DNA of 64,000 nt. Origin: Pseudomonas sp. Teo4. Lineage in GTDB: Bacteria; Pseudomonadota; Gammaproteobacteria; Pseudomonadales; Pseudomonadaceae. Position 1 is the first letter of the stretch; every line of letters begins with the position of its first letter. A program made the translations under genes and the position numbers. The stretch covers positions 1,302,001 to 1,366,000 of the forward strand of contig NZ_JAXCIL010000001.1 in NCBI RefSeq assembly GCF_034387475.1, read 5' to 3'. The notes under the pieces are model-generated. The model searched no databases. It worked only from the letters and a program-made list of their open reading frames with translations, and was not told the origin of the DNA. Of this stretch, positions 35,153 through 63,655 are shown piece after piece.

Positions 35153-35286
35153 GGTACTGACTCCGCGCAGGGGGATTCAGTAATGGTCGTGTGGGGTGGG
35201 GTGGGATTCGACTGGGGAATCGAGAGGGCGACGAATGGTGGGTTGGTCAGTGGTAGGTGCTTGCCGGGGGAGCTGCAGCGCTCTTG

Positions 35287-35511
35287 AGATCGAGCGCCGC
35301 CCGCGCGGCGCATCGCAGGCTTCGCCAGCTCCCACATCTGTTTCGGGCCAATTAATCCTGTGGGAATAGCGCGCGATCCCTTTGGCGCATGGCTCGATAT
35401 CGCGTCGTACAAACAAGGCGGTCGCGCGCGAACCTCACAGGCATAACTGGCCCGAAACAGATGTGGGAGCTGGCGAAGCCTGCGATGCGCCGCGCGGGCG
35501 GCGCTCGATCT
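35287..35511. repeat. Large inverted-repeat element, copy 1
   Basis: Two perfect 64-bp arms, 35287-35350 and 35448-35511, face each other around a 97-bp centre. The outer part of each arm (AGATCGAGCGCCGCCCGCGC and onward) and the inner GTTTCGGGCCA recur in copy 2 at 63.4 kb. The middle of the arm is a REP-like CAGGCTTCGCCAGCTCCCAC that differs from copy 2. The centre also pairs weakly (CCTGTG, CGCGCGA). No ORF is convincing inside. It sits between convergence-free genes and is nearly all of the gap from 35153 to 35550. Confidence 0.9.
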
Positions 35512-35550
35512 CTCAGGCGCCACACCTCGTGCGCCATGCACCAGAAAGCC

Positions 35551-63256: not shown

Positions 63257-63365
63257 GGCGGTGGGAAGGCAGAGCTTGGGGCAGAACGCCCCGGTCTGCA
63301 AGCAGCGCAAGATTGGGAATGGGTGGCTGCGATGTGCTTGTCTTGGGTTTTGGGGTGGTGCGTAT

Positions 63366-63587
63366 ATCGAGCGCCGCCCGCGCGGCGCATCGCGAGCAAG
63401 GCTCGCTCCTACGTTTGTATCGGGCCAGTCATGCCTGTGATAGTCGCGCGCGACCGCCTTGTTTGTACGACTCGATATTGAGCCGTGCGTCCAAAGCGGT
63501 CGCGCGCATTTCTCACAGGACTCATTGGCCCGAAACAAACGTAGGAGCGAGCCTTGCTCGCGATGCGCCGCGCGGGCGGCGCTCGAT
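63366..63587. repeat. Large inverted-repeat element, copy 2
   Basis: Arms of 62 bp (63366-63427 and 63526-63587) pair with one mismatch around a 98-bp centre. The outer ATCGAGCGCCGCCCGCGCGG and inner TCGGGCCA match copy 1 at 35.3 kb; the arm middle is GAGCAAGGCTCGCTCCTACG, unlike copy 1 but matched between its own two arms. The rest of the gap from 63257 to 63694 holds no gene apart from a terminator. Confidence 0.9.
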
Positions 63588-63622
63588 CTGACAAACCCCG
63601 AATATATTGTGGCAAACCCAAT

Positions 63623-63655
63623 AAAAAAGCCCCGCAGGCACAAGGCCTGCGGGGC
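63623..63655 (-). terminator. Intrinsic terminator after the TolC-type gene
   Basis: An 11-bp GC stem (GCCCCGCAGGC at 63629-63639 with GCCTGCGGGGC at 63645-63655, loop about five bases) is followed on the minus strand by six T. It lies about 40 bp beyond the stop at 63695. Confidence 0.9.

Follow-up and report, generated by a model that had tools for sequence, protein, structure and literature searches.

A capped, REPIN-like inverted-repeat element of Pseudomonas whose arms carry the REP classes of two RAYT genes

REPINs, as described for strain SBW25 in the passages cited here from Bertels and Rainey (2011, PMC3116915), have ends of 16 invariant bases, their REPs being spaced 71 or 110 bases apart, and compensatory changes in their spacer are called common. 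As regards the REP-associated tyrosine transposases (RAYTs), the cited parts of Nunvar (2010, PMC2817692; 2013, PMC3686654) report that each RAYT is flanked by its own REP class, that the REPs carried by RAYTs in the same syntenic position may differ, and that hybrid BIMEs with the REPs of two RAYTs occur in Stenotrophomonas. Besides, the TIRs found beside RAYT genes are presented in the cited text of Di Nocera (2013, PMC3733652) as a degenerate GTAG-1 unit combined with an unrelated stem-loop, with such 'bizarre structures' numbering in the hundreds in P. putida and P. fluorescens, and with some REP dimers elsewhere lying in longer palindromes. Finally, the R0, R1, R2 and R6 repeats of P. fluorescens are depicted, in the section cited from Silby (2009, PMC2718517), as identical inverted repeats of 24-43 bases around a variable core.

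The element studied here occurs twice in the window, that is, in the whole stretch of 64,000 nucleotides that was analysed (C1:1302001-1366000 of a 6.5 Mb genome in 10 contigs), and the positions of its parts are collected in Table 1. The initial annotation had placed the first copy at 35287-35511 with arms identical at 64 of 64 positions, and both statements are borne out, as the outer 64 bases of this 225-base element pair without mismatch. In the second copy (63366-63587), for which 61 of 62 matching positions had been given, 53 bases pair, one mismatch follows and pairing resumes up to base 62; the shared outer 20 bases, the inner pieces and the differing arm middles also match their description. 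Each arm is built of an outermost cap hairpin (GCGCCGC-loop-GCGGCGC) followed inward by a REP whose GTAG or GTGG tag is directed toward the element centre, both REPs facing inward; a short neck and, beyond it, a core of about 110 bases lie further in. With a cap hairpin and a REP in each arm, the structure goes, as had been proposed, beyond a simple REP pair. The consensus of 96 aligned full copies has 221 bases and is predicted to fold as one hairpin (-180 kcal/mol), the two inverted REPs forming a hairpin as in REPINs. Outside each cap lies a weakly conserved stretch of about 38 bases; the 192 flanks compared resemble each other when read inward and cluster into three subtypes (inward consensus GGTGCTTGCCTTGAG..GAGATCGAG), and the inserted unit therefore seems to measure about 300 bases, outer flanks included.

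Table 1. Parts of the two element copies, in window coordinates.
Feature	Position	Strand	Basis
Copy 1 left outer flank	35249..35288	.	flank consensus; approximate inferred bounds; weakly conserved extension of about 38 bases
Copy 1 left cap hairpin	35289..35311	+	arm pairing, genome-wide outer-arm matches
Copy 1 left REP, class REP-B (REP beside RAYT-2)	35312..35335	-	match to GTGGGAGCTGGCGAAGCCTGCGAT
Copy 1 neck and variable core	35336..35462	.	alignment of 96 copies
Copy 1 right REP, class REP-B	35463..35486	+	REP-B match, arm pairing
Copy 1 right cap hairpin	35487..35509	-	outer-arm matches, arm pairing
Copy 1 right outer flank	35510..35549	.	flank consensus; approximate inferred bounds
Copy 2 left outer flank	63326..63365	.	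flank consensus; approximate inferred bounds
Copy 2 left cap hairpin	63366..63388	+	arm pairing
Copy 2 left REP, class REP-A (REP flanking RAYT-1)	63389..63412	-	match to GTAGGAGCGAGCCTTGCTCGCGAT
Copy 2 neck and variable core	63413..63540	.	alignment of 96 copies
Copy 2 right REP, class REP-A	63541..63564	+	REP-A match, arm pairing
Copy 2 right cap hairpin	63565..63587	-	outer-arm matches, arm pairing
Copy 2 right outer flank	63588..63627	.	flank consensus; approximate inferred bounds

Among Rfam models, MIR1437 (RF04159) scores 107.7 bits (E 2e-20) on the minus strand of window positions 35286-35512, against a gathering score of 168; long GC-rich hairpins of any kind seem to score well with this microRNA model, which may alternatively derive from bacterial sequence. 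The matches to MIR1437 and MIR1144, below their gathering scores, and a weak score of CRISPR-DR28 on the hairpin were all set aside as long-hairpin or GC artefacts.

Genome-wide, the 28-base outer arm is found, at up to three mismatches, 90 times forward and 95 times reverse (control 0/0), and a core motif 92 times (control 0/0), with no strand preference of this motif (47 forward, 45 reverse). Merging of the two sets of matches gives at least 98 places, and the alignment of 96 full copies leaves aside a deletion copy (in L104) and a truncated one (L084). The element is intergenic: the 91 copies with parsed neighbours, five being unparsed, lie in 43 tandem, 39 convergent and 9 divergent gaps. 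Neither the plasmid nor the phage collections that were searched contain a match to the element.

The statement that arms differ between copies applies to six of the 96 full copies; the other 90 carry the REP-A hairpin. Five of the six, copy 1 included, are of class REP-B, and the remaining one (L008) is of a further type. A longer REP form, with about 15 extra hairpin bases, occupies both arms of L008 and of L197, and is present in one arm of L169, L209, L215, L224, L239 and L253.

The transposase searches, which covered Y1 transposases (PF01797), identified two RAYT genes in the genome. RAYT-1 (C1:106223, 151 codons) reaches 160 bits with the NCBIfam model NF047646, 'REP-associated tyrosine transposase' (cut-off 80), and, among proteins of solved structure, its sequence matches one, TnpArep 4er8 (E 5e-8); RAYT-2 likewise matches the NCBIfam 'REP-associated tyrosine transposase'. 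RAYT-1 has an S1-domain gene on one side and a bacterial DNA-binding (HU/IHF-type) domain gene on the other, which we take to be rpsA and ihfB, and is flanked on both sides by complete REP-A elements. RAYT-2 has a REP-B pair on one side, with no capped element adjoining it. Each of the two REP classes in the arm middles belongs to just one RAYT locus. The linked RAYT that the initial annotation had advised to look for is present, and its idea of modular REP swapping inside a larger unit is strengthened, the arm middles being the REP classes of the two RAYTs. In this genome, element and RAYT gene share a GTAG/GTGG-tagged REP, as in REPINs. Close to RAYT-1, the S1-domain and HU/IHF-type frames (L113 1-1097 and 2437-2721) look broken by single-base indels, as judged by eye, which suggests assembly indel errors; some gap-type arm differences may therefore be assembly errors.

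Allowing one mismatch, REP-A is present at 92 + 91 = 183 places, about twice the count of REP-A elements, and it appears to be confined to capped elements, because these occurrences are about the expected number, as judged by the total and not place by place. REP-B is found at 134 places (67 + 67), only about ten of them within the capped element, and elsewhere it forms many short pairs among the matches listed. Since REP-B is abundant outside the element and stands beside RAYT-2, we infer that the REP-B capped copies are chimeras of two families, with the scaffold of the RAYT-1 family and the REP of RAYT-2 in both arms. In a midpoint-rooted core tree, the six REP-B and L008 copies fall into a 10-tip group (support 0.94) that also holds the REP-A copy L010 and three relatives.

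In the genus-wide search, 245 of 398 genomes match at E 0.001, many of them weakly. An exact cap search in named genomes gave at least 120 stretches, and 76 of the 80 matches listed bear Pseudomonas names, presumably mostly of the putida group; conservation of the cap across named species is partly built in, because the cap served as query. The 94 elements parsed (102 pairs minus 2 for length and 6 unparsed; 93 from relatives plus the own copy L114, with repeated genomes and at least one locus present twice, L119 = L232) contain 41 sequence variants of the REP segment beneath the cap; this segment is identical in both arms of 71 elements, compared with a mean of 5.8 and at most 16 in 2,000 shufflings of the right arms. 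Because shuffling across species overstates the concordance of arms, shuffling within genomes was added, on pairs read by eye among the matches listed: the arms match in 13 of 13 pairs in G308 (shuffle mean 6.5), 8 of 10 in G145 (2.5) and 6 of 8 in G311 (1.6), values reached in fewer than 1 in 1,000 shuffles. In G065, 10 of 16 match against a shuffle mean of 9.9, and 6 in 10 shuffles reach that number.

A RAYT hit was obtained in 24 of the 26 relatives searched; G323 and G227 carry elements with no RAYT hit that could share their REP. A tree was built from 48 of 52 RAYT loci (50 of 60 hits plus the two own genes), the four unparsed loci outside it being L266, with caps nearby, L279, without them, L296 and L304. 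One clade (support 0.99) has a cap in the fetched surroundings of 12 of its 13 members, compared with 0 of 35 RAYTs outside it; capless loci on cut contigs are L271 inside the clade and L274 and L290 outside, so one cap-linked RAYT among these 35 could be missed. The REP beside the clade's RAYTs broadly follows subclades, with CTTG in L113 and L269, GGAT..ATCC in L265 and L270, GGGC in L283 and mostly GCGCAG otherwise, and a clade RAYT is syntenic with RAYT-1 in at least seven genomes by both flanks and in an eighth by one, as read from 40 of the 43 two-flank pairs. However, in G311 a single RAYT hit goes with at least three kinds of capped REP, which counts against a simple one-to-one link between REP and RAYT.

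As for the chimeric arrangement, a search of 398 genomes for cap plus REP-B, two mismatches being allowed, first gave four candidates. In G364 and G190, REP-B lies beside other hairpins, with no cap, and these were discarded; the pattern is confirmed in two genomes, G000 and G346, the latter with cap and REP-B in both arms of two elements, and both carry a RAYT of the RAYT-2 clade. An inside-out arrangement, with REP tags outside and caps inside over spans of 222-249 bases, was seen in G117 (C20:50202-50423, C35:17553-17784, C39:53470-53701, C43:218636-218867) and G311 (C80:135643-135891).

The element is probably a large capped REPIN, multiplied by a RAYT and subject to later recombination between its arms. 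It would be a non-autonomous unit of two inverted REPs, each capped on its outside by a second hairpin, the whole sitting in a longer, decayed palindrome of about 300 bases. The RAYT, a transposase of HUH/Y1 type, would recognise the REP hairpin as single-stranded DNA and copy the unit to new sites, a role suggested by the linkage of RAYT and REP class, and multiplication would largely be limited to units whose two arms both hold the cognate REP, so that arms would match within a copy and arm types would come as subfamilies. After insertion, the near-identical arms would recombine or template-switch with each other, which would copy changes between arms and invert the core. We infer two sources for the matching arms, first the birth of subfamilies with a single REP and second recombination between arms in place. 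That one scaffold has changed its REP class is real, and this may have come about either in place or via rare chimeras that then multiplied. Several observations weigh against the overall reading: no capped element adjoins RAYT-2, G323 and G227 have elements but no RAYT hit, G311 combines several REP kinds with one RAYT hit, and the arms of G065 match at chance level.

Over 55 bases and 96 copies, arm identity is 0.981 within and 0.956 between copies, with both arms fully identical in 40 copies; when the 90 REP-A copies are taken by themselves, the values become 0.981 and 0.977. In these 90 copies, double changes that pair were compared with permutations. They number 2 in the REP (permutation mean 0.1, maximum 1), 5 in the neck (mean 0.7, maximum 4) and 5 in the cap (mean 1.4, with permutations up to 7), while the core shows no excess (15 against 18.5 in permutations; paired fraction 0.854 against 0.855). 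Arm concordance is confined to the arms of about 55 bases. In all, 12 paired events in the three arm zones (cap, REP and neck) make up the correction signal, and eight of these fall on positions 5 and 50; changes in one arm outnumber changes in both (48 cap, 3 REP and 24 neck cells). Since the four carriers of the both-arm change at position 50 have unrelated cores (similarity 0.71-0.84, compared with a mean of 0.84), these changes look like separate events; at position 5, two of the four carriers are close (core 0.92) and the others are not. The effect of arm-to-arm correction is modest.

These results bear unequally on what the initial annotation had offered as causes. Gene conversion gains from the paired excess in REP and neck and from the inverted cores described below, and is weakly backed in the cap, where permutations reach 7. 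By contrast, covariation keeping the whole long hairpin is not supported, as the core shows no excess of paired changes. It had also been stated that copies whose two arms differ from each other as much as from other copies would speak against the proposal: part of this was found, one-arm changes being common, arms of the same REP hardly more alike within than between copies, and those of G065 matching at chance level.

The most serious competitor, which we hold to be quite possible if somewhat short of an even chance, is that arms match by descent alone, from subfamilies born with identical arms and purifying selection on the REP, with no copying from arm to arm. The concordance of REP types in G000, G308, G145 and G311 is compatible with subfamily descent, and both G065 and the narrow margin among same-REP arms agree with it. 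However, both-arm changes occur in copies with unrelated cores and between insertions common to two species, and inverted cores are seen at such sites, all of which argue against descent alone.

The zones of the element are unequally conserved. Among the 90 REP-A copies, mean pairwise divergence rises from the REP (0.004) through the cap (0.028) and the neck (0.052) to the core (0.160), giving the conserved ends and less conserved spacer known from REPINs. The REP deviates at 9 of 4,500 sites and the core at 1,015 of 9,990; within one set of copies, the constancy of the REP thus exceeds that of the core some 40-50 times, which is new here. When the count is restricted to the quarter of copies whose cores have diverged furthest, 3 of 1,250 REP sites still are the only ones to deviate. 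Simple decay since insertion therefore does not fit, as REP and core should decay alike. Either selection at some ninety dispersed sites or repair of arms from each other or from other copies would account for the constancy of the REP.

Insertion sites were compared across species by joining the flanks of own sites and searching 18 relatives, with at least 30 loci and 12 further stretches read. For copy 1, an empty site was sought, and the relatives proved too distant (G007, 75-78 percent on two flanks). The site L105 shows filled, bare-cap and empty states across species: the own gap measures 301 bases, outer flanks counted, against 15 in G081 and G364, where it is nearly empty. It is filled in G065, G368 and G323, with mutually similar outer flanks (0.67-0.72); their REP loops read TGC/TGC, TAC/TAC and TAC/TGC, respectively, and the tag of G323 is unlike that of G368 in both arms. 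G145 has there a bare cap palindrome with outer flanks of the G368 type, and G289 a bare cap whose left flank is like that of the G065/G368/G323/G145 group. Other insertions occupy the site in the own genome, G342 and G311, and another REP pair in G057. In G045 (L342), G227 (L347) and G163 (L348), the gap spans 898-922 bases and contains neither cap nor REP. The outer flanks are missing from the empty sites, and seem to arrive together with the element; the flanks of empty and filled sites are too diverged for delimiting a target site duplication.

Elements in the same gap were rejected as proof of REP change in place, the outer flanks being mostly unshared (0.59 for 31 same-site pairs, 0.55 for 1,080 unrelated ones); such pairs with unshared flanks were therefore counted as separate insertions, and the in-place comparison was restricted to L007, L023, L044 and the G065/G368/G323/G145 group at L105. 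Outer flanks are shared by descent between L007 and G065 (0.85, 0.70), L023 and G342 (0.71, 0.88), and L044 and G323 (0.72, 0.85), the best other own copy giving 0.69 at the L023 site and 0.73 at the L044 site. In all three cases the core is inverted relative to the genes in comparison with the relative's copy, and both arms differ from the relative, in the REP loop at L007 and L044 and at neck base 50 at L023. Core inversion, likewise new here, would be the expected trace of arm-arm recombination, to which it points. The L007 core is recognisably the same as that of its relative (0.955, rank 1 among the 86 own copies parsed), whereas the same-site cores rank 68th (L023) and 65th (L044) of 86, most other own copies being closer; core similarity is nonetheless a blunt measure, L007 being the own copy closest to many relatives. 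For L023 and L044, replacement by another copy is an alternative to inversion.

Such replacement is central to two further readings, both of which we regard as doubtful. One supposes a resident outer palindrome in which REP-core-REP cassettes are replaced by ectopic recombination between copies. The shared flanks and poorly ranked cores at L023 and L044 speak for it, and so does G145, whose bare cap at the L105 site keeps the same outer flanks; the absence of these flanks at empty L105 sites, the core kept at the L007 site and the bluntness of the core measure argue against it. The other, a wider and rather speculative view, is that REPIN populations evolve in concert: arms at fixed intergenic sites would recombine mutually and with other copies, inverting and replacing cores, a new REP would reach both arms, and the family would switch REP class with the RAYT of its host without new insertions, the cap providing the constant homology that enables this and bare caps being deletion products.

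Bare cap palindromes lacking REP and core were noticed at seven loci (L351 1740, L276 1930, L280 1367, L233 4694, L246 1291, L255 5569 and L141 1326), L276 and L280 adjoining RAYT genes, and they look like products of deletion between short repeats of the two caps. In addition, the same gene gaps hold, in other species, different REPIN families, bare hairpins and even a RAYT gene (L029/L287, L090/L191, L033); certain gaps are hot spots, whatever the REP family.

It is improbable that the element is a long RNA or DNA hairpin kept by compensatory changes for a structural function, for instance bidirectional termination. The consensus does fold as one hairpin and 39 of 91 parsed copies lie between convergent genes, but the core is devoid of compensatory excess, no Rfam match reaches its gathering score, and some relatives have empty sites. 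Least credible of all is a MITE, which would be a miniature derived from a DDE-type insertion sequence and bounded by long terminal inverted repeats: although such repeats, many intergenic copies and both filled and empty sites are present, the gene between two copies is a RAYT and not a DDE transposase, and the arms hold the REPs of two RAYTs.

The element offers a test bed for how a REP population keeps its uniformity and tracks its RAYT over species time: a genome holds about 100 copies, a single scaffold carries two REP classes, and some insertions are common to several species.

Compared, by description, with the repeats in the cited section of Silby (2009, PMC2718517), the element has in common with R0, R1, R2 and R6 the identical inverted repeats around a variable core and the tail-to-tail bias, but theirs are shorter-armed, the arms of the 177-base R6 measuring 34 bases. 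Among open-licence papers, a text search with an 18-base piece of the cap found none. On the basis of the text description cited from Di Nocera (2013, PMC3733652), the cap and REP on both sides of RAYT-1 are like the TIRs reported there, and the two may be the same or sister architectures, although the REPs are intact here and degenerate in the TIRs; because of this possible sister structure, the element is not claimed as undescribed. As in the systems of Nunvar (PMC2817692, PMC3686654), each RAYT has its own REP class, REPs differ at syntenic places and hybrids of two RAYTs exist, and the GGATTCATCC REP beside capped RAYTs here is the palindrome of the Pent1 REP of P. entomophila given in the parts of these papers cited; those parts treat the REP alone, whereas here both REPs differ on a shared scaffold of cap and core. 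Finally, set against the REPIN as it appears in the cited passages of Bertels and Rainey (PMC3116915), the element is larger (about 225 bases), its perfect arms measure about 55 bases, each REP has a cap hairpin on its outer side, the two REP starts of copy 1 lie 151 bases apart, and there are an outer decayed palindrome and a spacer without compensatory excess (15 against 18.5). It shares with the REPIN two inverted REPs whose conserved ends enclose a less conserved spacer, and is likewise palindromic, extragenic and RAYT-linked.
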